A DNA stretch of 21,122 bases from a bacterium (GCA_024278215.1 JAJRTR010000019.1:1-21122), one strand, 5' to 3'; shown: positions 3,390 to 17,398, numbered from the stretch's first letter. The notes: generated from the sequence alone by a model not told the origin. Program-made: numbers and translations.

Positions 3390-6300
3390 TCACTGGCACG
3401 GACTTGTTGATGAAGATGCTACGAGTGATCCCCAGAAACTTTTCATGATGGCAATATCCAGCGCATTAACAGTTCCGTCGCCATTGTTATCCACGTTGAT
3501 GTCATATTCGGGGTCCCCCTCGAGTTTACCCCATGCCGGTTTCATAACAGCAAGGTCGAGTGCGTTGACGATATTATCGCAATTCGTGTTGCCGATGACC
3601 GGGCCTGCACCTACAGGTGCCGGTTCCGGTGTAAGCAGATCGAACGGCGGCGAACCTTCCTGGAGATTGATGTCTTTGTGTAGAGTATAGTAACCGATGC
3701 CTCCCGACATGGGAGCGGAGACCGGGTAACCGCTTCCATCCACGACAAGAAGCCGGACATCATACTTCTCGCTTGTGCTGCCGTCTTCGTATATCAACTG
3801 ATAGTAGCCGTCCGAATCGGTGTAGGCGGTGGCGAGTGTCTGCCCGTCTGAGTCAACGAGCATAACGGTCAGGTTTTCCTTGCCGACTTTCATGTACTCG
3901 TTTGTGGCGGGGTCTCGCTGGTCCATGTCCCGAACCCTGATGCGGCCGCGGACGCCTTTTGTGCCGTATATGCAGGTAGTAACCGACGACGAGGCACTTT
4001 CATTGCCGCCTTCGTCGACCGCCGTGACAGAGTAGCTGTACAGTATACCTGTCGAAATTGTGTAATCGTTGTATGACGAACTCGGCACAAGCGTTTCGCC
4101 GTTGATCTTTACGGTTGTGGTAGCGCCGGTGTAATATCTGTAGACATTGTATCCCTGATGATCCGCATAAGAAGAGCCGTCGGTGTTCTGGGTGGGTTTC
4201 GTCCAGGAAAGGCCGCAAACGCCGCTGCCCGGCGTGGTCAGCAGGTTTGTGGGCGCATTGGGCGGGTAATCTGTCGGCGCGCCGGGTGTCGCATAAGTTT
4301 CCGACGAGAACGCGCTTTCATTCGCCGGATTAGAACTGTCCACTGATTTCATCGCATAATAGTATGTTGTTCCATCCACAACATTTGTGTCCTGGTAATT
4401 TGTTTTTGTCGGTTCCAGCTGTGATGTGAGAAGCTGATAATTACCGGAGGAGATGCCCCTGTAGAGGAGGAACCCCGCGAGATCGGTCAGGGGCGTCCCG
4501 TTCGTGTTTTCATCGGGAATCGTCCATGTGAGGTTCACCTGCCCGGTAGCGCCAAGGGCGAGCAGGTCACCCGGTGGATTAGGTATGGCGTCGTCGCTGT
4601 TCACCGCGGTCGCCGACACTTCCGTGGACTGCGGGCTGTAATTGACCGGGGCCGCGTCGTCACCCGCAACCACCACATAGAAATATTCCGTACCTGTGGC
4701 GACGGTATAATCTTTGTATGTTGTCCATGTCGCCGGTATCATGGCATCCAGCGTACCGTCGTTCCTGTTTACAGCGTACTGCGGATCGGGATTCTGCCCA
4801 CCACTTGTCGTACTCCTGAAGACTTCATAGCCCATAAGGTCTGTTAGCGCAGACCCATCGGTATTCAGCGTAGGTGTCGACCATGAGATGAGCACATATT
4901 CATCGCCTTCGGCGGTGGAATCATCGCCCGCGGCAGCCGCGACACTTCCGGGGGTTGCAGGTGCGACATTATCCTGATATTGAATGCCGATTTCCACTAC
5001 ATTATCGTCTTCGTTCGGAGGCGATACGCTGTCCTGCGCGCGCACTGTGAAGAAGGCCCACTGTTCGTCTTCGAAACCTGTGGCGATATATATTGTCGCC
5101 GTCGTTGTATACGTGGGCGTGGAGAACGTGTACAAGCCGGAGAGTGGCGCCTGGTAGATGTTATATTGCACCGGAGTGGACTGGTCCTGGGCTTCGTCCC
5201 ACTGAAGTTGAAGTTCGCCGTCGCCGCTGTATATCGAGAGTCCGGTGATGCCGCCGAACACCGGCGGGTCGGTGTCGCCGGGCGTGCCGGAGAGTTCTGT
5301 TGTCCATGTGCTGCTTTCGTTGGCATAGATACTTGCGTCCACAGAAGTGACGAGGTAGTAATAAGTTGTGCCGTCCGTCAGGCCGGTGACGTCGTAGTAG
5401 CTTCCGGCGGGTGCCTGATAAGTTGGTGAGCTGAAATCGTATATGCCGGATGTCGTTGTCTGGTAAATGTTGTATGTCACAGGTGTGGAACGGTCCGAAG
5501 CTTCATCCCATGAGACCCTTAGAGTGCCGCCTTCCGTAGTATTGGAGACAGACTGTGCGCCCGCGAATGTCGGCGGTGTCCTGTCAGTGGGTGTCGCGGA
5601 TACTATCACATCCGCCGTAGTTTCATTCTGCGGATAGAAATCGACAGCGTCGAACGCGCCGACGGCGAAGTAGTACAACTCGTTGTTGTCGAGACCGGTT
5701 ATGGACAGGGAAGTGCTTGCTGTATTGCTGACCGTATAGTCTGGTTCATCCAACAGATTCGTTGTTGTGCCCTTCTGGACATAAATGTTATATCTCACAG
5801 GCAGTGTGTCGTCGGTGGGCTGGCTCCATGTCAGTAGCACTTCGTTTCCGATCATTGTGTCCGCTGCCGACTCGAGGCCGTCGAAATCCGGTGGCACGTT
5901 GTCGACCGGCATACCGCCCATGATGTTTGTGTTGGTGTCTTCGTTGCCTGCCGAGTCCTCGGCGCGCACGACGAAGTAATATGTCTGCTTGTTTTCGAGA
6001 CTTGAAATCGTGACCGATGTCACCGAGGTGGACGTTTTTATTCCATCGGCGAGGACTTCCGCGAGGGTGCCGTTTTTCTTATAGTAGATGTTGTATGTTA
6101 TCGGTAGGGAATTGTCTGTCGCGGTGGACCACGATACTTTGATTTCCTTACTTGTGGTAGTCACGTTTTTAACTGATTCGACGCCCTCGAAACTCGGCGG
6201 CGACTGGTCTGTCGGAATGCCGGACAACTGCACTGTGTTCGTGGAATAGTTGGGTGGCGATGCCGCGTCTCTCGCCCAGATGGAAAACTTGTGCGACACC

Positions 6301-9300
6301 CCGTTTGTCAGGCCGTCCACGTCGTAATAGTTTGTCCCGTATACTTCGGCTATGGGCGTCGCGTAATCGATCGATGCCGACCCCGTCGCCATGAAAATCT
6401 CGTAGGTTACAGGTGACGACATGTCAACAGCGCTCGACCAGTATACCCGCAGGCTGCCCCCCGTCTCGTTGTCGACGACACTCGCGATACCGGCGAAAAC
6501 CGGTGGCGTCGTGTCGGTCGGAGTGGCGAAAAGTTCTTCGGTATTAGTCGATGTGAGTCCCGCGACATCGCGCGCGCGCACCGACACGTAATAGCCTGTC
6601 CCGTTTATAAGGCCTTCGAGGCTCACGGAAGTGACCGTTGTCGAGTAGTCAGGCGAGTTATAGTCCTGGCCGCTCGCCGTCATGGATATGAAGACCAGGT
6701 AAGTGATCGGCGATGAGTCGTCCGTGGCCGCGCTCCACGACGCGAGCAACGTGCCGTACGCGCCTGTGTCCACAAGTGACGATATTCCACCGAAAACGGG
6801 CGCGGCCCCATCGTTGGGTGTCGCGTATTTCTCGACTTCGTTGTTCTCTTCCCTTGTGCCCGCGTCCTCGGCTCTCACCACATAATAGTATTCCTGCCCG
6901 TTCGTCAGGCCGGTGATTATCGTCGAGGTGGCGGTGGTCTGATATGTCCATGAAGAGAAATTCTGCCCGCCGGATGTTTCCGCTTCGTAAATGTTGTAAA
7001 GGACAGGCGGTGAACTGTCGGTCGCGGCGTCCCACACGAGTTGTATCTCGCCTGATGACGCTGTCGGCGTGGCATAAGAAAGTCCGCTGAAGACAGGATC
7101 GACCCCGTCTGTCGGTATCGCCGAAAGCTCCACGCTGTTCGTGTCTTCATTGCCTGCCGAGTCTTCAGCCCGGACGACATAGTAGTACTCGACTCCCATT
7201 GTCAGCCCCGTGACCTGGTAGGTGGCGTTCTGTGTCTGGTATGTCCATGAACCGAAGTTGTAGCTCGTCGTCGATGTCTTCATGTAAATGTTGTAGCTGA
7301 TCGGGGTCGAATTGTCTGTCGCATCGTACCACAGAAGGTCGAGTGCCGTTCCGGTCTCGGCGTCGTCACACTTCGCTATACCGTCGAATATCGGATTCAC
7401 CCCGTCCGAGGGGGTCGCGGTCAGGACGACGACGTTTGTGTCCTCGTTGCCTTCCGCGTCCTCGGCGCGAACCGCGAAAGCATACTGGACATCATTTGTC
7501 AGCCCGGTAATATAATATCTGCCGGTTTGAGTTGTCGTGGTAATGTCGGGAACGGCATACGAGTCGATGGTCGCGCCCTGGTTGTAGTAGATGTTGTAAG
7601 TGATCGGTGGAGTGTTGTCGGTAGCGGCGAGCCACAGTATGTAAACCTCCGCGCCTTCTCCTGTGTCCAGCGCGTTGTCGATACCCGCGAATGTGGGGGG
7701 CGTCGAATCTGTCGGGATCGCGCTTTTTTCCGTTGTGTTTGTATTTTCCAGCCCCGAGACGTCCTCGGCGCGCACGACAAAGAAATATTCCTGCCCGTTC
7801 TCGAAGTCGAAGTCGGCGTCGAGAGCCGCATTTAGAGCGAGTGTCGTCGTTGTCGACGCGGCGGAATACGCGGGTGTGCTGAAATTCTGTCCGCCGGATG
7901 TCGCAGCCACGTAGATATTGTATACGAAATTGGAATTGTCCGCGGCCGCGCCCCATGTAAGCTGTATCTCGCCGCCGTTTCCCGTATCCGCCGCAGCGGA
8001 AACCTCTCCGCCTGTCGGCGCGGCCCCGTCCGAGCACAGCGTGCCCAGTTCGACTACGTTGTCGTCCTCATTGAGCGTGGCCGCGCTGTCCTGGGCGCGA
8101 ACCACGAACCATTTATAGTCGCCGTATTCGAGTTCACCGGGCGCCAGTATCCCCGCGGTGATCTGAACTGAGGTACCGGATACCGACTGGATAGGTCCCG
8201 CAAAGTTATACTCGCCCTGTGTTTCCGTCATATACACAAGGTAGGTTATAGGTGGAGACAGGTCGGTGGCGGCGTCCCAGGTGAGGTCTATCGTCGGTTC
8301 GACTGCGGATTGCCCGTCCGTTGCGGACGTAATCCCGTTAAAGGCCGGGGCGTAGGTATCCGTCTCCTCGATGATGCTCAGTTCGTTGTCCGAGGACGAC
8401 ACAGTGCCGAGCAGCCAAGGTTCCGTGCCGCCCGCCCCCGTGCCCGGTGTCACATAATCTATCCCGTATGGCGAAGCGCCTACTGTCACCGATGCCGACG
8501 CGCCTCCCGCGGGACCGTTGTCCGCCGAATCGAAAACATAGACTTTCCCCTCTGACGGCACCGTGATATATATCAGGTCCGTGTCGGGATGGTACGCGAC
8601 ATCATAAGGCACGCTGTCCGTGAATATCGTCGCCTCGATACTGTCATCCGAACCGTCAATGACAGTAGTCTGCCCGGCGGCGTCGTGTGTTATGTAAATT
8701 TTATTGGTTTCCTCGTTTATCGCGATGTTTTTCGGACTGTTGAATATGTTTACGGTTTCAATATATGAATTGTTCGTGCCGTCATATACGAAAAGCTTGT
8801 TATAAGCGGTGATGACATAAACCCTGTTGGTCGTTTCGTTTACGGCGACATCGACAGGGGCCGCCAATCCATCTCCGGAGATCGGCGTCAGCGAGGCATA
8901 CGTCTGCGCGTTTATCACCCTGACCTTATCGTTAGTGTAATCCACGATAAAAACTTCGTCCGTGGCGTTCGCCGTGTTGATCGCTATGCCGTTGCTGTAT
9001 TCCTGTCCCGTGGGTCCCGTACTCATCAACATGGAAATCGGCGACTCCAGCACCTCGGTATCCAGATCATAAATAAAAAGTCTGAAATAAGTGTTGTCGG
9101 TTACGAAAACCTTCGGGTCGCTAAGGTTCTCATAGATCGCAACACCCCACGGCTTGCTTGAACCGCCGTTAAGAGATATCACCTTCTGCGCGAATGTGTC
9201 GCCGGCGATTTCGAGCAGCAGCCCATCGTCCGGCACAGTCACGAAATACCGTGTGTGTGTCGCGTGCGGTATCGCCACGAACTGGCCGGCATACGTACCC

Positions 9301-9461
9301 ATATCCACGTTCGTCGGATTCGATGCCTCCGCTTCCGCTCTCCGCGCCACCCCGGACATCACCGCCATAACCAATATCAATATGGTAGCGAATACCACAC
9401 CGCAGAGGTTTCTGTAAAACAAACGACAGACGGCATCGCTCAATAATTCCTTGTTCTGCAT
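3390..9461 (-). CDS. Giant secreted beta-propeller / 14x fibronectin-III / dockerin protein
   Basis: 2023 aa. The N-terminal signal or anchor helix is at about 20-38, with likely cleavage near the AEAEA stretch around 44. Residues about 60-365 form a YVTN/YncE-type beta-propeller (motifs such as IYITVPSEGKVYVFDS). I count 14 consecutive FnIII-like modules of about 104 residues (about 372-1832). Most begin D-x-x-P-P-x-F-x-G and end with a YYFVVRAEDSAGNEDTN-like strand followed by ATPTD; the last three are divergent. A carboxypeptidase-regulatory-like beta-sandwich (about 1836-1936) follows. The C-terminus is a dockerin-like pair of F-hands: NTNCDNIVNALD and DNNGDGTVNALD, each followed by an IMK/VMK helix ending in WG. 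The second has Asp/Asn at calcium positions 1, 3, 5, 9 and 12. Start ATG at 9461 with AGGA upstream. Likely an extracellular scaffold or adhesion protein; no catalytic domain seen. Confidence 0.9.
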   Translation of the reverse strand: MQNKELLSDAVCRLFYRNLCGVVFATILILVMAVMSGVARRAEAEASNPTNVDMGTYAGQFVAIPHATHTRYFVTVPDDGLLLEIAGDTFAQKVISLNGGSSKPWGVAIYENLSDPKVFVTDNTYFRLFIYDLDTEVLESPISMLMSTGPTGQEYSNGIAINTANATDEVFIVDYTNDKVRVINAQTYASLTPISGDGLAAPVDVAVNETTNRVYVITAYNKLFVYDGTNNSYIETVNIFNSPKNIAINEETNKIYITHDAAGQTTVIDGSDDSIEATIFTDSVPYDVAYHPDTDLIYITVPSEGKVYVFDSADNGPAGGASASVTVGASPYGIDYVTPGTGAGGTEPWLLGTVSSSDNELSIIEETDTYAPAFNGITSATDGQSAVEPTIDLTWDAATDLSPPITYLVYMTETQGEYNFAGPIQSVSGTSVQITAGILAPGELEYGDYKWFVVRAQDSAATLNEDDNVVELGTLCSDGAAPTGGEVSAAADTGNGGEIQLTWGAAADNSNFVYNIYVAATSGGQNFSTPAYSAASTTTTLALNAALDADFDFENGQEYFFVVRAEDVSGLENTNTTEKSAIPTDSTPPTFAGIDNALDTGEGAEVYILWLAATDNTPPITYNIYYNQGATIDSYAVPDITTTTQTGRYYITGLTNDVQYAFAVRAEDAEGNEDTNVVVLTATPSDGVNPIFDGIAKCDDAETGTALDLLWYDATDNSTPISYNIYMKTSTTSYNFGSWTYQTQNATYQVTGLTMGVEYYYVVRAEDSAGNEDTNSVELSAIPTDGVDPVFSGLSYATPTASSGEIQLVWDAATDSSPPVLYNIYEAETSGGQNFSSWTYQTTATSTIITGLTNGQEYYYVVRAEDAGTREENNEVEKYATPNDGAAPVFGGISSLVDTGAYGTLLASWSAATDDSSPITYLVFISMTASGQDYNSPDYSTTVTSVSLEGLINGTGYYVSVRARDVAGLTSTNTEELFATPTDTTPPVFAGIASVVDNETGGSLRVYWSSAVDMSSPVTYEIFMATGSASIDYATPIAEVYGTNYYDVDGLTNGVSHKFSIWARDAASPPNYSTNTVQLSGIPTDQSPPSFEGVESVKNVTTTSKEIKVSWSTATDNSLPITYNIYYKKNGTLAEVLADGIKTSTSVTSVTISSLENKQTYYFVVRAEDSAGNEDTNTNIMGGMPVDNVPPDFDGLESAADTMIGNEVLLTWSQPTDDTLPVRYNIYVQKGTTTNLLDEPDYTVSNTASTSLSITGLDNNELYYFAVGAFDAVDFYPQNETTADVIVSATPTDRTPPTFAGAQSVSNTTEGGTLRVSWDEASDRSTPVTYNIYQTTTSGIYDFSSPTYQAPAGSYYDVTGLTDGTTYYYLVTSVDASIYANESSTWTTELSGTPGDTDPPVFGGITGLSIYSGDGELQLQWDEAQDQSTPVQYNIYQAPLSGLYTFSTPTYTTTATIYIATGFEDEQWAFFTVRAQDSVSPPNEDDNVVEIGIQYQDNVAPATPGSVAAAAGDDSTAEGDEYVLISWSTPTLNTDGSALTDLMGYEVFRSTTSGGQNPDPQYAVNRNDGTLDAMIPATWTTYKDYTVATGTEYFYVVVAGDDAAPVNYSPQSTEVSATAVNSDDAIPNPPGDLLALGATGQVNLTWTIPDENTNGTPLTDLAGFLLYRGISSGNYQLLTSQLEPTKTNYQDTNVVDGTTYYYAMKSVDSSNPANESAFSSETYATPGAPTDYPPNAPTNLLTTPGSGVCGLSWTKPTQNTDGSSYADHQGYNVYRYYTGATTTVKINGETLVPSSSYNDYTISTGILYSYSVTAVDEGGNESASSSVTTCIYGTKGVRGRIRVRDMDQRDPATNEYMKVGKENLTVMLVDSDGQTLATAYTDSDGYYQLIYEDGSTSEKYDVRLLVVDGSGYPVSAPMSGGIGYYTLHKDINLQEGSPPFDLLTPEPAPVGAGPVIGNTNCDNIVNALDLAVMKPAWGKLEGDPEYDINVDNNGDGTVNALDIAIMKSFWGSLVASSSTSPCQ

Positions 9462-12238: not shown

Positions 12239-12269
12239 TTGACATGACAGGCTGAAAATAGTATTTAAT
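12239..12269 (+). promoter_or_regulatory. Promoter of the cobalamin-riboswitch transcript
   Basis: Perfect -35 TTGACA at 12239-12244. The -10 is either TATTTA after 17 bp (12262-12267) or the better-matching TTTAAT after 19 bp (12264-12269). Initiation near 12275 would place the riboswitch about 60 nt into the RNA and give a leader of about 520 nt. Confidence 0.5.
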
Positions 12270-12332
12270 ATCTCTGGATGTCGGTTTCTGTGAGTTGCAG
12301 TCGGAAAACATCCATGAAACTTGAATCGGACA

Positions 12333-12499
12333 GGCTTATCACAATGCCCGGAAAACGGGCGCACGGAATCCGGTGGGAAACCGGAACGGTCAGGCCGCTG
12401 TGAGCGAGGACGAAAACCGCAGGAGTGCCACCGCCGATAATTCGGCGGGAAGGCGCGGCGAGTAGGTTGATCCGCGAGTCAGAAGACGTGTGAAAAGCC
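12333..12499 (+). promoter_or_regulatory. Cobalamin (B12) riboswitch
   Basis: Closing stem P1 is formed by GGCTTATCACA (12333-12343) and TGTGAAAAGCC (12489-12499), 10 of 11 bases paired. Inside, in canonical order, are GGAATCCGGTGGGAAACCGG (from 12365), CGGTCAGGCCGCTGTGA (to 12402), a GCCACCG...GGGAAGGC segment around a CCGAT/ATTCGG hairpin (about 12427-12454), and the B12 box CCGCGAGTCAGAAGAC (12472-12487). These are the conserved core elements of the class that binds adenosyl- or other cobalamins. An intrinsic terminator follows, so B12 binding should switch off the downstream lipoprotein and TonB-receptor genes by premature termination. Confidence 0.95.
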
Positions 12500-12520
12500 G
12501 CCTTGCATTATGTTCTTCCA

Positions 12521-12581
12521 GCGAAAGAACGTAAGGTCTGATGCTGAATCATTACGTTCAATCAAACCCCGTTTCTTTCGC
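12521..12581 (+). promoter_or_regulatory. Candidate antiterminator pairing of the riboswitch expression platform
   Basis: GCGAAAGAA (12521-12529) is exactly complementary to TTCTTTCGC (12573-12581), which contains part of the left arm and loop of the terminator. Formation of this 9-bp helix would break the terminator. The same upstream segment can instead pair locally: GTTCTT (12512-12517) with AAGAAC (12525-12530), or GAACGTAA (12527-12534) with TTACGTTC (12552-12559). These mutually exclusive pairings are what a switching platform needs. Confidence 0.55.
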
Positions 12582-12600
12582 GAGAGAAACGGGGTTTTTT
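12564..12600 (+). terminator. Strong intrinsic terminator of the riboswitch
   Basis: A 13-bp perfect stem, AAACCCCGTTTCT (12564-12576) with AGAAACGGGGTTT (12585-12597), an 8-nt loop and a run of six T (12595-12600). It lies between the aptamer and the first structural gene, about 195 bp before the lipoprotein start, so it is the off-switch of the leader. Confidence 0.93.
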
Positions 12601-12681
12601 CGTTCCCGCCTGCCGCGACCGGCCCATGCGGCACATCGCGTGCCCGGTGTGTGCCGCTCACAGTCTCATTTGTGTATACGT

Positions 12682-12695
12682 GGCGACCGGTCGCC
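12682..12695. repeat. 14-bp perfect palindrome in the post-terminator leader
   Basis: GGCGACCGGTCGCC lies between the riboswitch terminator and the lipoprotein start. Just upstream, GCGGCACA (12628-12635) pairs with TGTGCCGC (12650-12657), and a further TGCCGC (12611-12616) can compete for the same partner. It may be a second RNA-level control element or a protein operator; unproven. Confidence 0.45.
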
Positions 12696-12795
12696 GACAG
12701 GCGTTCACATACTTGACACAGGTGTCGCGTGGAAGCAGCTTTTGTCGCGGCGCGAAAGTTTGTCAAAAAACAACAGAAGGAAAACGGAGGTTTTT

Positions 12796-14532
12796 ATGAA
12801 AAAGAGATACGCGGGATTTATTACAGGAATGTTTTTTGTTGTCGCACTGGGCGCAGTGTTTATCGCGGGTTGTGGCGGTAGCAGCGGTACAGGGTCCTAC
12901 ACGGTTTCCGGCACGCTTGAGATTCCGGACACAACGACCGGCGCGGCGAGGATGGCCGCTGCTATGGGCGCAGCTACAGGCACTGTGCAGTTGTCAATCG
13001 TCAGCGCCACCGGCACTGAAACAATTATTGCCGGTCCGATCAGTACCGACGACAACGGTAAGTATTCATTCGCTGTGTCCAACACATACTCATATACGGT
13101 AAACCACGTGATAGCGAGAGCTGTTGTGACAGCACCCGACGGCGCGACCGCCACGCTTCGCACCAATGTGACCGGCACAACTGCCGACATCACGCCTGTG
13201 ACGGAAGCCGCCTACCAGATCATCACAGAAAAACTCGTTTCGGACGGAAAAACTTTCAACGACCTGACCTACACGGAAGTCGCCGACATCGTGACAAAGG
13301 TGATAAGTGCTGTCGGAACCAGCGCGGACAGTCTCGCCGATTCGCTCGACACGATTATAAACAACGCCAAAAGCATCGCCGCATTCGACGCCGATGTGCA
13401 GTCCGCTCTGAACTCGGCGGTCGACGACACATCTTCCGCTATCAATTACATCGTGATGGCGAACACGCCTTCGGGATGGTCGGAAACACAGGGCGACTTC
13501 GCTTATATGGCACTTACGGGAAGCGCGGATATCGCTCCTTCGGCTACATACAATCTGCTGAGTCCCAACCCGGTCAACAGTGATGTGGCCATCGCGGTCG
13601 ACAACTCCTATGTATATATTCTCAACAGGTACGGATACGATACAGTCGTCGTGCTCGATCCCGCGGCCGGGTTCAGTGTGACCGCAAACTATTCGCTGAA
13701 AGAGAACTCTTCGGACGCAACGCTCAATCCCCAGGATATCGAAATTATCAGCTCGACAAAAGCTTATGTGACACTTAATGAAAAAGACTATATCCAGATA
13801 ATCAATCCGCTTACGGGTGAGCGCACAGGTACGATATCGCTTGCGCCCTACACGCAACAATTCGGGAGCGGCGACACACTGGACACTATTCCCGAAGCTG
13901 CGAATATGGTCGCGGTCGGCAGCAAAGTTTTTGTCGCTGTCCAGAATCTCGACAGATCAAACTACTGGGCAACCACGGATTACGCGAAGGTCGTCGTCAT
14001 CGACACCAGCACAGACACGGCCGTCGCGAGTATCGACCTGAGCGCGAACTGCGGGCAGAACCCCACGGGCGATCTTGTGTATGCGTATAACCTCATATAC
14101 CTGACATGTTCGGGCAGCACCTTCAACCCGACAGGCCCGGAATCGGCCGGCATAGCATCCATAGACCCGGCCACTTATGCCGTCACGAAAATAGCTTCGA
14201 AGGGGGACGGCGATTTCTCCTGTTCGCCCAGCAACATCGCAATAGCTTCCGCGACAAAAGGCTATTTCACATGTATTACATCGTGGCCGACTACCGCCGT
14301 GTATGCTTTCAATCCTTCGACCGGCGATGTAAACTCGACAGCGATTTTCTCGGGATCGGTCGGTTTCGATCTCGGCATCGACCCGGACGGCAACCTCGTG
14401 GTGCCCTCGCGCGACACATCCGCGCCGGGCCTGCTTTTCTTCGATACGTCCACAGACGAGCAGGTTTACAGCAGTGTCGTTCCTGTCGGTCTCATGCCCG
14501 AAGCTTTCGACTTCTTTACTTACACGCCGTAG
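12796..14532 (+). CDS. B12-regulated beta-propeller lipoprotein, candidate BtuG-like cobalamin-binding protein
   Basis: 578 aa. Start ATG at 12796 with GGAGG 5 bp upstream; the frame is open further 5' but that part overlaps the terminator and is leader. The lipoprotein signal ends in lipobox IAGC with Cys26, followed by a Gly/Ser-rich linker. Residues about 35-130 look like a beta-sandwich, about 135-225 are mainly helical, and about 245-578 are a YncE/YVTN-type propeller with blades such as YVYILNRYGYDTVVVLDP, KVVVIDTSTDTAVASIDL and AVYAFNPSTGDV. Control by a cobalamin riboswitch and position 99 bp before a TonB-dependent receptor suggest B12 capture at the cell surface. In Bacteroides, BtuG is a surface propeller lipoprotein that works with BtuB. 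The N-terminal region of about 200 residues is extra. Homology to BtuG is not established here; the fold and context are. Confidence 0.8.
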   Translation: MKKRYAGFITGMFFVVALGAVFIAGCGGSSGTGSYTVSGTLEIPDTTTGAARMAAAMGAATGTVQLSIVSATGTETIIAGPISTDDNGKYSFAVSNTYSYTVNHVIARAVVTAPDGATATLRTNVTGTTADITPVTEAAYQIITEKLVSDGKTFNDLTYTEVADIVTKVISAVGTSADSLADSLDTIINNAKSIAAFDADVQSALNSAVDDTSSAINYIVMANTPSGWSETQGDFAYMALTGSADIAPSATYNLLSPNPVNSDVAIAVDNSYVYILNRYGYDTVVVLDPAAGFSVTANYSLKENSSDATLNPQDIEIISSTKAYVTLNEKDYIQIINPLTGERTGTISLAPYTQQFGSGDTLDTIPEAANMVAVGSKVFVAVQNLDRSNYWATTDYAKVVVIDTSTDTAVASIDLSANCGQNPTGDLVYAYNLIYLTCSGSTFNPTGPESAGIASIDPATYAVTKIASKGDGDFSCSPSNIAIASATKGYFTCITSWPTTAVYAFNPSTGDVNSTAIFSGSVGFDLGIDPDGNLVVPSRDTSAPGLLFFDTSTDEQVYSSVVPVGLMPEAFDFFTYTP

Positions 14533-14579
14533 TGTAGTTAATGTATATTTTCAAGTTGCATAGACATTTATCAATCAAT

Positions 14580-14606
14580 CCGTGGCCGGTGCAATTCCGG
14601 CCGCGG
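14580..14606 (+). other. Intercistronic hairpin between lipoprotein and receptor genes
   Basis: CCGTGGCCGG (14580-14589) pairs with CCGGCCGCGG (14597-14606), ten pairs including one G-U, around loop TGCAATT. A pyrimidine-rich stretch (TGTTCTTTCTT) follows. It could be an attenuator lowering receptor expression relative to the lipoprotein, or an mRNA-stability element. Its CCGGTGCAATTCCGG core looks like the P3 arm of cobalamin riboswitches, but no B12 box or other core follows. Confidence 0.5.
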
Positions 14607-14631
14607 TGTTCTTTCTTACCGGATGGTTCGC

Positions 14632-16677
14632 ATGAGATCAACAACCAATAGTTTGCACATTTTATTTACGGCTTTGTTGGCGTCTGCGCTGGTAATGTGC
14701 GCGGCGCGGCAGGGCAGGGCGGCGGACACGCAGCCGGAACCGTTCTATCTCGGCGAGGTAGTGATCGAAGCCGATTATACCGACCACGATGTGGAAGAGA
14801 TAATGGACAGGCCGATAAATACGACGGTTATACGCCGCGAAGACTTCGAGAACAGGTTCACATCATTGCCTGAAGTGTTGTCCGAACAGGCGGGCGTCGA
14901 GATAAAAACTTATGGCGGATTCGGCAGCTACAGTACTGTTTCCATCAGGGGCGTTTCGTCGGATAAAGTACTGGTTATGCTCGACGGCATCCCGCTGAAT
15001 CTCGGGCTCGGCGGCGCTGTGAACATCGGCGACCTGCCGTTGAAAACACTCGAAAGAATTGAGGTGTACAAGGGGCATGTCCCCGCCGAATTCGGTACGA
15101 ACGCCATCGGCGGTGTGGTCAATCTCGTAACGCGGAAAGGCGGCGGAAAGACCGGGGGCGGCCTTTCGCTTTCAGCCGGCGACTACGATACACGTGAGTT
15201 CAATCTTTTCACGAGCTCGTCGGCTAAAGACCTCGACCTTGCCGTGAGCCTGACGAGGCGCGAGTCCGACGGCGATTTCGATTATCTCAACGATATGGGA
15301 ACGCCCTACAACAGCTCGGACGACAGCCGCATATCGCGCAAAAACAACTGGTTCAGGGACACTCATGCCGTCCTGAACGCGGAGTATGCCGTCGACAGGA
15401 ACCGGAGACTCATTTTCGGTCAGCGCTGGTCGTATAAGAACCAGGGTGTGCCCGGACCGGCCAACTCGCCGTCGCTCTTCGCCAACCTGAAAACTCTGAA
15501 TACCGTAATGAACCTCAAGTACAAAAACCGCGAAGGACTCGGCCCCGACACGGAGACGGGCGTCGACCTGCAACTTCATAAATACGAGTCGAGATTCAAC
15601 GACACCTACACAAACAGCGGCGAGATCGGCCTGAACAGGCAGGACAACAGGAACACCACAACAAGCACGTCTCTTACAGGGCATTTCAATACATACATCG
15701 GCGCGAATCATGAAATATACGGCTCCCTGTCGCGCACTCGCGAACACTACCAGCCTACAGACAGGATGAAGGAGATCGAAGTGGGGATGCCGAGCACGCG
15801 GACGGCATGGACCACACGCCTCGAATACCGGTTCAGGTCCGGCAGTGACAGGCTGCTCGCTACGGCGGCGGTCGGGCGCCAGGATGTGAAGTCTACTTTC
15901 CCAGGCGACGATCCCGACACCAGCTGGCTGTTGCAGCCCGACCAGACGGATAAACAGAAACTCGACGACTATCACCTGGGACTCCGCCTGCGGATTTCAG
16001 AGAGGCTGACGATGAAAGCCAACGCGGGTAAATACTATCGGCTGCCCGGCTTCTACGAGCTGTTCGGCGACCGCGGCAGTGTGGTGGGCAACACCGACCT
16101 CAGGCCCGAAAACGGCGAGAATCTGGACATCGGACTCTCGCTGACCGCAGGGCCGTCAAAAAATAATGTCACATTCGATTTTACTTATTTCGATCAGAAT
16201 ATCGACGACATAATCGTGTTTGTCGAAAAAACGAGAACCGTTTTCTATGCGACAAATCTCAAAAACGCCAGTATCAGAGGCACGGAAGCAAGTCTCAACT
16301 GGAAGATATCACCCTCATGGCGCTTCAACGCCAATCACACATGGAAAGACACGGAAAACGGTGGGGACCCACCCTCGGACTCCGGCAAGAAACTGCCGGG
16401 CCAATATGAAGACACGTGGAACTTCAAACTACAGTGGAACATCGCCGGCTTCGAGATATACAACAGCCTCGAACTCGCACGCAACGCCTATCTCGATTCC
16501 GCGAATTTCAATGAACTCGACGACCGTGACATTTATAACGCGGGCTTAAGTTATTCCGTCGGCGACTGGGTTCTGTCCGTCGACGTCAAGAATATTAATG
16601 ACAATGTAATCAGCGACGTAATCGGTTATCCACTCCCCGGCAGGTCTACCTACTTCACAGTGAAACGCACTTTCTGA
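14632..16677 (+). CDS. TonB-dependent outer-membrane receptor, BtuB-like
   Basis: 681 aa from the ATG at 14632, chosen because GGATGG lies 5 bp upstream; an in-frame ATG at 14623 lacks a ribosome site. A signal peptide covers about the first 30 residues (...LVMCAARQGRAADT). A TonB-box-like EVVIEA follows shortly. The plug domain (about 40-165) shows PINTTVIRREDF, LSEQAGVEI, SIRGVSSDKVLVMLDGIPLN, LERIEVYKGHVPAEFGTNAIGGVVNLVTRKG. The barrel ends in the typical aromatic terminus YFTVKRTF. Its size suits a vitamin B12 receptor (E. coli BtuB is about 600 aa). The riboswitch-led operon with a propeller lipoprotein supports cobalamin or cobinamide as the substrate, imported with TonB-ExbBD energy. 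No btuCDF genes are in the window, so substrate identity is inferred from context. Confidence 0.9.
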   Translation: MRSTTNSLHILFTALLASALVMCAARQGRAADTQPEPFYLGEVVIEADYTDHDVEEIMDRPINTTVIRREDFENRFTSLPEVLSEQAGVEIKTYGGFGSYSTVSIRGVSSDKVLVMLDGIPLNLGLGGAVNIGDLPLKTLERIEVYKGHVPAEFGTNAIGGVVNLVTRKGGGKTGGGLSLSAGDYDTREFNLFTSSSAKDLDLAVSLTRRESDGDFDYLNDMGTPYNSSDDSRISRKNNWFRDTHAVLNAEYAVDRNRRLIFGQRWSYKNQGVPGPANSPSLFANLKTLNTVMNLKYKNREGLGPDTETGVDLQLHKYESRFNDTYTNSGEIGLNRQDNRNTTTSTSLTGHFNTYIGANHEIYGSLSRTREHYQPTDRMKEIEVGMPSTRTAWTTRLEYRFRSGSDRLLATAAVGRQDVKSTFPGDDPDTSWLLQPDQTDKQKLDDYHLGLRLRISERLTMKANAGKYYRLPGFYELFGDRGSVVGNTDLRPENGENLDIGLSLTAGPSKNNVTFDFTYFDQNIDDIIVFVEKTRTVFYATNLKNASIRGTEASLNWKISPSWRFNANHTWKDTENGGDPPSDSGKKLPGQYEDTWNFKLQWNIAGFEIYNSLELARNAYLDSANFNELDDRDIYNAGLSYSVGDWVLSVDVKNINDNVISDVIGYPLPGRSTYFTVKRTF

Positions 16678-16810: not shown

Positions 16811-17398
16811 ATGAGAACAAAATTTTATACGATGATCGCCATGATCGCATTAACTCTTATCATGTCGGTTTCGTCCTCTGTGCACGCACAGGATAAGAAA
16901 GCACCGCGGGACAAGAAAGATGCACTGCTGGAACTGTTCGAGATTATTGATTACAAGGGACAGATGTTGAAGATCTCCGAATCGATGACCGAGCAGGTGA
17001 AACAGCAGAGTGAAAAGATGATGGGCAGAATGATGAAGAGCAGCAGCCTTTCGGATGAAGAGAAAGAATACATCGAGACCGAATTCATGCCGGAGTATGT
17101 CAGGAAAATGACGGATGCCATTACCACGATATTCAAAAACGATGAGATAATAACAAACATCCTTATGCCGGTATATGCAAAGCAGTTCACGGGAGAAGAA
17201 GTAAAACAACTGATTTCCTTTTACAAAACACCGGTCGGAAAAAAAGTCGTGAAGACAATGCCGGAGATCACGCAGGAAGTCATGGGTGCGCTGTTGACGG
17301 AATATGGACCACAGATACAGGAAGCGGTAAAAAACGTGACGTTGGGAATGATGAAGAAGTTCCAGGAGAAGTTCGGGAGACAGATTATACCTGAATAG
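16811..17398 (+). CDS. DUF2059 domain-containing periplasmic protein
   Basis: 195 aa from the ATG at 16811, with TTGGAG upstream. The signal peptide (MRTKFYTMIAMIALTLIMS...) has a likely cleavage after VHA at residue 26. The mature part is highly charged and helical. The segment PVYAKQFTGEEVKQLISFYKTPVGKKV is the DUF2059 hallmark: a short helical domain found in many exported proteobacterial proteins of unknown biochemical role. It has its own promoter, so it is probably not part of the B12 operon. No terminator was seen after it. Confidence 0.88.
   Translation: MRTKFYTMIAMIALTLIMSVSSSVHAQDKKAPRDKKDALLELFEIIDYKGQMLKISESMTEQVKQQSEKMMGRMMKSSSLSDEEKEYIETEFMPEYVRKMTDAITTIFKNDEIITNILMPVYAKQFTGEEVKQLISFYKTPVGKKVVKTMPEITQEVMGALLTEYGPQIQEAVKNVTLGMMKKFQEKFGRQIIPE

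Follow-up and report, generated by a model that had tools for sequence, protein, structure and literature searches.

A cobalamin riboswitch operon outside the Bacteroidota encodes a probable divergent sister of the BtuG-BtuB cobamide uptake pair

Introduction

Is the capture of cobamides by a propeller lipoprotein that serves a TonB-dependent receptor a speciality of the Bacteroidetes, or is it a wider strategy of Gram-negative bacteria? The question is raised by an operon at positions 12,239–16,677 of a 21,122-nucleotide stretch of bacterial DNA (GCA_024278215.1, JAJRTR010000019.1:1-21122; the whole stretch is called the window below), in which a cobalamin riboswitch precedes genes for a propeller lipoprotein and a TonB-dependent receptor. 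The traits of BtuG, the B12-capturing lipoprotein of the Bacteroidota, include sub-picomolar cobamide binding and the capping of BtuB. In Bacteroides, BtuG2 delivers its ligand by closing on the receptor BtuB2 (PMC10404256). A BlastP search at 1e-10 over 313 human gut genomes found BtuG only in Bacteroidetes, and its discoverers ask why this phylum acquired a component of this kind when other Gram-negatives did not (Wexler et al., PMC6143338); lipoprotein-capped TonB receptors likewise seem exclusive to Bacteroidetes (Abellon-Ruiz et al., PMC10404256). In the open-access literature, with subscription papers outside the search, no description of BtuG outside Bacteroidetes was found. A 2026 paper argued, by way of DUF4465, that B12-scavenging lipoproteins are wider than Bacteroides (PMC13398666).

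An earlier note, made from the sequence alone, had proposed that the operon encodes a capture-and-import pair equivalent to BtuG-BtuB, with an independently evolved or divergent lipoprotein. On the evidence given below, we consider it quite probable that the operon encodes a two-part outer-membrane cobamide uptake system, a divergent sister of BtuG-BtuB, whose propeller would bind cobamides, stand at the cell surface and contact the receptor.

Sequence and fold of the operon products

The comparison of the propeller with BtuG, DUF5074 and YncE, which the earlier note had called for, placed BtuG nearest by both sequence and fold. Searched by phmmer against all PDB chains, the window lipoprotein matched nine, all of them Bacteroides BtuG (E 2e-4 to 2e-3), and E. 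coli YncE, which is present in PDB, was unmatched by sequence. A profile of proteins from UBP15, the provisional label of the window's phylum (represented by seven genomes in the set searched), improved the BtuG match to E 4e-6, the sole other chain being unrelated (E 1.2). Three fold searches likewise placed BtuG at the top, above E. coli YncE: the first 15 Foldseek matches of the propeller model were BtuG chains, followed by an archaeal YVTN propeller and YncE, and ranks 1–11 of VIA-align were all BtuG (Z 30.7–33.1, the highest to 3dsm; 308–317 residues, 2.8–3.2 Å), with 1l0q as the first other entry at Z 29.9. The margin of BtuG over other propellers thus appears clear by sequence and modest by fold; identity to BtuG on the structural alignments was 16–20%. 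A tblastn search of 72,556 plasmid records gave two matches in total, both in Bacteroidaceae. One lies in an annotated locus of the type DUF4465, PKD-like, lipoprotein, YncE, TonB receptor, BtuF, BtuC and BtuD, whose propeller shows no visible mismatch to BtuG chain 8bmx_D and so has the same or almost the same sequence, and the other is in a record without annotation.

The lipoprotein begins at ATG 12796 behind the ribosome-binding site ACGGAGG, and its lipobox reads F-I-A-G-C26, so that both the lipobox and the propeller noticed earlier were recovered, the latter by AlphaFold2 and the fold searches. In the AlphaFold2 model (17 homologues in the alignment) the predicted local distance difference test score is mostly 85–97 from about residue 260, and the propeller is well modelled; its extent is a little longer than the residues 245–578 first assigned to it, the structural match to BtuG spanning 213–578. 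The N-terminal region had been read as a beta-sandwich plus helices, which is plausible and agrees with four helices at 134–209, although the strands, within 38–122, have low confidence and are not reliably modelled. Five other proteins encoded in this genome, away from the operon, also carry this N-terminal module (residues 26–209), with a second one on contig C37; it therefore appears to be a general spacer or anchor module and no special B12 feature. The net charge of the propeller is −25, compared with −15 in BtuG2 and +3 in YncE, and acidity of this domain is a family-wide trait, which recalls the acidic binding face of BtuG2 (PMC10404256).

Downstream, in the same direction and after a gap of about 90 bp, the second gene encodes a TonB-dependent receptor, as had been recognized: Pfam identified a plug at residues 60–165 (PF07715, E 1e-22) and, at 233–658, the barrel (PF00593, E 7e-27) that in such receptors has 22 strands. 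It matched BtuB chains in PDB at E 1e-19. The full cobalamin riboswitch with terminator described earlier was likewise borne out, since the score of the full-length aptamer (Table 1) stands against a gathering score of 31.5 bits for RF00174 and a 15-bp stem with T tail follows; the fold stability of the terminator region (12500–12610) has z = −4.2. The arm ahead of the terminator could act as the antiterminator, in line with the arrangement common in riboswitches that switch transcription off.

Conservation of the locus in UBP15

The propeller, the receptor and at least one cobalamin riboswitch were found in all seven UBP15 genomes, with propellers 35–37% identical to that of the window. Three genomes (G003, G004 and G005) carry riboswitch-btuB-propeller-btuF-btuD-btuC on one contig (Pfam Peripla_BP_2, ABC_tran and FecCD), G006 carries the riboswitch, btuB and the propeller before its contig ends, and the genes of G001 and G002, split over contigs, are compatible with the same order. 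The window genome (G000, a 4.5-Mb draft, 95% complete) is exceptional within UBP15, for its propeller lies ahead of btuB and its btuD-btuC lie on contig C147 without a riboswitch; btuF was not found adjoining them there. Because the pair and the riboswitch recur in relatives, the grouping of riboswitch, propeller and receptor exceeds chance.

The window genome has a second cobalamin riboswitch (G000:C109:6819-7001, 102 bits; L001; L043 7527-10728). It precedes genes for an HMGL-like protein (homocitrate/isopropylmalate/Re-citrate synthase-like, with a C-terminal sensor-like domain) and an NADP-isocitrate dehydrogenase, which may place an apparent 2-oxoglutarate route under B12 control.

Distribution outside UBP15

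When genome contigs were scanned with the single window protein, no relative was found, and the UBP15 alignment was needed. Two motifs drawn from the propeller only, searched in 84,980 species genomes, then yielded 27 loci outside UBP15. In 23 of these, tblastn placed a BtuB-like receptor next to the propeller gene in the same orientation (the exceptions are L051, L056, L072 and L077), RF00174 is present in 21 (downstream in L058), and btuF, btuC or btuD come next in many. The loci with such neighbours come from Nitrospirota, Krumholzibacteriota, Myxococcota, Thermodesulfobacteriota, Pseudomonadota and Poribacteria. The pair behind cobalamin riboswitches, for which the earlier note had suggested a survey, therefore recurs; homologues are not mostly away from B12 genes, and the UBP15 operon itself runs into btuF-btuD-btuC.

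These neighbours bear on the possibility that the propeller binds something other than a cobamide (a cobalt complex, a siderophore, pyrroloquinoline quinone (PQQ) or heme d1), or serves as a structural subunit, and is merely co-operonic. Seven-bladed propellers take many ligands, the iron lid XusB and YncE partner TonB receptors and have related folds, and the pocket residues of BtuG are not conserved in the window family (see below). However, cobalamin riboswitches, receptors of the BtuB group and btuFCD are recurrent neighbours across phyla, and the nearest relatives bind cobalamin, so that we regard another ligand as very improbable.

In Thermodesulfobacteriota, the family occurs in 24 of 297 evenly drawn genomes, a base rate of 8%. 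Across 23 stretches from this phylum, several of which end at contig edges and two of which (L162 and L165) repeat L058 and L062 of the 27-locus set, the receptor is adjacent in 20 and RF00174 is present in 15. Starting from the receptor instead, the clade receptor was found in 14 of 198 Thermodesulfobacteriota genomes, all of them among the 24 propeller carriers; in 13 of the 14 the genes for receptor and propeller are neighbours. Since the search profile came from propeller-paired receptors, this shows the association for this receptor clade and makes no claim for BtuB in general. Among 299 evenly drawn Pseudomonadota genomes only the anchor genome has the family, and the system is therefore sparse there.

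Some loci are unusual in their content. In L057 (3090-8963; riboswitch-propeller-BtuB-propeller) two different family members flank one receptor. In L164 (G442:C9:112000-125000), two propeller genes each follow a cobalamin riboswitch of their own and have no adjoining receptor; a clade receptor lies about 50 kb from them in the same genome. L056 (1883-2965), from a Thermoplasmata archaeon, encodes a propeller with the family residues (D, R, NP-D, K, Y, Q), and no recognisable B12 genes were found at this locus. Two candidates were rejected. In-frame TGA (selenocysteine) in some Thermodesulfobacteriota homologues was dropped, because the TGA of L117, the one checked, is the normal stop codon of the gene, situated shortly before the profile match ends. 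An apparent BtuB-propeller fusion in L052 was a false wrong-frame open reading frame, the true propeller gene starting from about 7818 with its own signal peptide.

Descent of the pair

In the maximum-likelihood tree of the propellers, the Bacteroidales BtuG cluster together (97/92), with Poribacteria L077 added to them, and UBP15 and the others form the rest; the window propeller thus lies outside the Bacteroidales BtuG clade, as its sister, on a root set by a single long outgroup branch, E. coli YncE. In the receptor tree, the 26 receptors that are paired with a propeller fall into a single clade (100/100), whose neighbours are the Bacteroidales BtuB (93/85). E. coli BtuB branches outside, at a weakly supported fork (83/49), and the remaining UBP15 receptors lie at a greater distance; the window receptor thus groups with known BtuB, apart from other TonB receptors. 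Three subgroups are common to both trees, namely Thermodesulfobacteriota with Gammaproteobacteria, Krumholzibacteriota, and Myxococcota. In trees that hold few unpaired propellers and few solitary BtuB, this pattern fits a common descent of the pair, with both vertical and lateral spread.

Alternatively, BtuG-like partners could have been recruited independently, in and outside the Bacteroidota, from general YVTN/YncE propellers. The low identity (16–20%), the different conserved pocket residues and the dependence of the propeller root on one long branch would fit such convergence, but the propellers choose BtuG over all other propellers by sequence, and both trees place the partners beside their Bacteroidales counterparts; we therefore judge it rather unlikely. 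Because receptor and propeller both stand beside these counterparts, the trees favour a divergent sister family of the Bacteroidota BtuG-BtuB rather than an independent invention, which makes divergence the better supported of the two origins envisaged earlier and independent origin the less supported.

Cavity residues and class of the lipoprotein

Outside the retrieval motifs, D263, N311, P312, D314, K322, Y324, Q383, N422, P423 and G440 (window numbering) are near-invariant in the family; R278 is also conserved, but it is part of a retrieval motif. At the positions of D263, R278 and D314 the Bacteroidales proteins mostly carry S, N and Y. BtuG and the window family thus each seem to keep their own conserved set, and we infer from the alignment that these residues line the cavity.

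Several observations weigh against an equivalence with BtuG. The cavity residues of BtuG2 (Trp194, Trp272 and Tyr316) are not conserved: the position of Trp194, which narrows the BtuG2 cavity (PMC10404256), is Gln383 in the window protein and Gln in 25 of 28 family members, and those of Trp272 and Tyr316 align poorly and show no conservation in the family. Other positions that one family conserves also have different residues in the other family, and the binding chemistry of BtuG is therefore not transferable. Pfam gave no match to the window lipoprotein at E ≤ 0.2, nor did DUF5074 (PF16819) match it at E ≤ 1; sub-threshold DUF5074 matches were found in the relatives L051, L055 and L077. The Bacteroidetes lipoprotein export signal, described after the lipidated Cys (MKWD in BtuG2; PMC6143338), is absent after Cys26, where CGGSSGTGS stands instead. 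As for the receptor, its match to TIGR01779 (TonB-B12; 183 bits, E 8e-54) is far under the curated cut-off of 599.7. With DUF5074, the export signal and Trp194 unmatched, the lipoprotein is therefore not classed as BtuG proper.

Envelope anchors of the relatives

Most relatives have a lipobox by sequence, and the anchors found in the family vary. Krumholzibacteriota proteins combine an ordinary signal peptide with a FlgD-like or type IX secretion system (T9SS)-like tail (PF13860, E 2.6e-8 in L064; weak T9SS matches), Thermodesulfobacteriota members have choice-of-anchor U and CFI-box-CTERM domains, Granulosicoccaceae members have long low-complexity linkers, and further relatives have dockerin-like or long Gly/Asp/Thr-rich N-terminal stretches. 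Because different anchors sit on one conserved propeller, this suggests that selection acts on a propeller held at the envelope, on a side of the outer membrane that the anchors leave undecided.

On the one hand, the propeller could be periplasmic, as an inward-facing outer-membrane lipoprotein that takes the cobamide from the receptor to BtuF and forms no surface lid. Many Gram-negative bacteria keep lipoproteins on the inner leaflet, which speaks for this arrangement, as do the missing export signal, the frequent adjacency of the propeller gene to btuF in UBP15 and elsewhere, and the order riboswitch-propeller-btuF of L051, which, like the riboswitch-propeller locus L077, has no receptor in the locus. 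On the other hand, the nearest relatives are surface lids (PMC6143338, PMC10404256), and the varied anchors (FlgD/T9SS-like, choice-of-anchor U, CFI-box-CTERM, linkers) better fit the surface. We consider a periplasmic propeller unlikely and retain the surface lid.

Features of the operon and of its surroundings

The features of the operon region are collected in Table 1. The hairpin between the two genes could reduce the expression of the receptor relative to the lipoprotein.

Table 1. Coordinates of the operon features in the window
Feature	Position	Strand	Basis and remarks
Possible sigma-70-type promoter, ATGACA-16-TAATAT	12244-12271	+	9/12 consensus letters, upstream of the riboswitch; a consensus match alone is not proof of function
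Cobalamin riboswitch aptamer, RF00174	12325-12506	+	cmscan 87.2 bits, E 1.3e-20; model 1-189, full length
Putative antiterminator arm GCGAAAGAA	12521-12529	+	Exactly complementary to 12573-12581 inside the terminator; presumed role
Riboswitch intrinsic terminator	12564-12597	+	15-bp stem and T tail
BtuG-like propeller lipoprotein, 578 amino acids	12796-14532	+	Translation; signal peptide and lipobox Cys26; same-operon homologues in all UBP15 genomes
N-terminal spacer module of strands followed by four helices (residues 26-209)	12871-13422	+	AlphaFold2; module recurs in the genome
Seven-bladed beta-propeller, residues 214-578, presumed cobamide-binding domain	13435-14529	+	phmmer, VIA and Foldseek to BtuG
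Intergenic hairpin, 10 bp (9 G-C)	14580-14606	+	Stable fold; poor T tail TGTTCTTTCT; possible attenuator or processing signal
TonB-dependent receptor, BtuB group, 684 amino acids	14623-16677	+	Pfam plug and barrel, TIGR01779, PDB BtuB chains, tree; alternative start ATG 14632
TonB-box-like segment EVVIEA ahead of the plug	14755-14772	+	Read by eye in the translation; putative

Elsewhere in the window, a gene for a DUF2059 envelope protein (16811-17398) immediately follows the receptor gene in the same orientation and is probably a separate unit. At 3390-9461 the minus strand carries a gene for a protein of 2023 residues that combines fibronectin III repeats, a dockerin domain at its C-terminus and, at its N-terminus, a match to the YncE propeller profile (E 1e-10). 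A 201-bp tandem repeat (2.1 copies) occupies 1-422, inside an open reading frame running off the window start.

Proposed function and significance

The proposal of an equivalent capture-and-import pair is supported by the kinship to BtuG, the BtuB-type receptor and the recurring riboswitch. When internal cobamide is low, the riboswitch would permit transcription, to judge from the known mechanism of RF00174, and the propeller and the receptor would be made. The lipidated Cys26 would anchor the lipoprotein in the envelope, with the N-terminal module as a spacer. At the cell surface, the cavity face of the acidic propeller may then capture a cobamide and pass it to the BtuB-type receptor, which would use TonB energy to transport it through the outer membrane, and BtuF-BtuCD could subsequently move it inward.

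On the evidence of sequence and gene neighbourhood, the family contradicts the exclusivity of BtuG and of lipoprotein-capped TonB receptors to the Bacteroidetes; it was overlooked in the search of Wexler et al. because its sequence distance is large. More broadly, we lean slightly towards the view that uptake through BtuB with the aid of a propeller is ancient among Gram-negative bacteria and has been inherited widely, and is not a gut invention of the Bacteroidetes. The window pair would then represent a second BtuG-type family with its own cavity set (D263, R278, N311-P312-x-D314, K322, Q383, N422-P423) and with anchors that were swapped repeatedly, spread over at least six phyla outside the Bacteroidota and including free-living and subsurface bacteria. 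The family itself shifts the likely origin of BtuG-type uptake away from gut competition, and its distant propellers form a set on which to test how a cobamide can be bound and passed on to BtuB with other pocket residues and other envelope anchors.

Comparison with known uptake systems

BtuJ (DUF4465) represents another type of B12-binding lipoprotein of btu loci, unrelated in fold and absent from the window operon, and such lipoproteins are reported in eight bacterial clades inside and outside the Bacteroidota (PMC13398666). XusB, the xenosiderophore-binding propeller lipoprotein of Bacteroides fragilis, also has a TonB receptor as partner and matches the window propeller in fold, but it binds ferric siderophores and its similarity is lower (Z 26 compared with 33). 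E. coli YncE is likewise a seven-bladed propeller whose gene adjoins that of a TonB receptor, PqqU; however, this neighbour imports PQQ, and YncE is not acidic. E. coli BtuB (TIGR01779, NF007926) has the plug, the barrel and the B12-riboswitch control in common with the window receptor, as well as a significant profile match, but it works without a propeller partner, and the window receptor falls under the equivalog cut-off and in another clade.

BtuG-BtuB of Bacteroides thetaiotaomicron (Wexler 2018, PMC6143338; Abellon-Ruiz 2023, PMC10404256) is the closest known system. The window system differs from it in lying outside the Bacteroidota, in the extra N-terminal module of about 185 residues, in lacking the Bacteroidetes-type export signal, in Gln at the Trp194 position and, at about 18–20% identity, in forming a separate clade. 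Both share the cobalamin riboswitch and the gene for a propeller lipoprotein beside that for BtuB, with BtuF-BtuCD nearby in relatives, and BtuG, whose seven-bladed fold came first in Foldseek and VIA, is also nearest by sequence. Even the gene order of the window has its counterpart in the B. finegoldii locus, where BtuG comes before BtuB.

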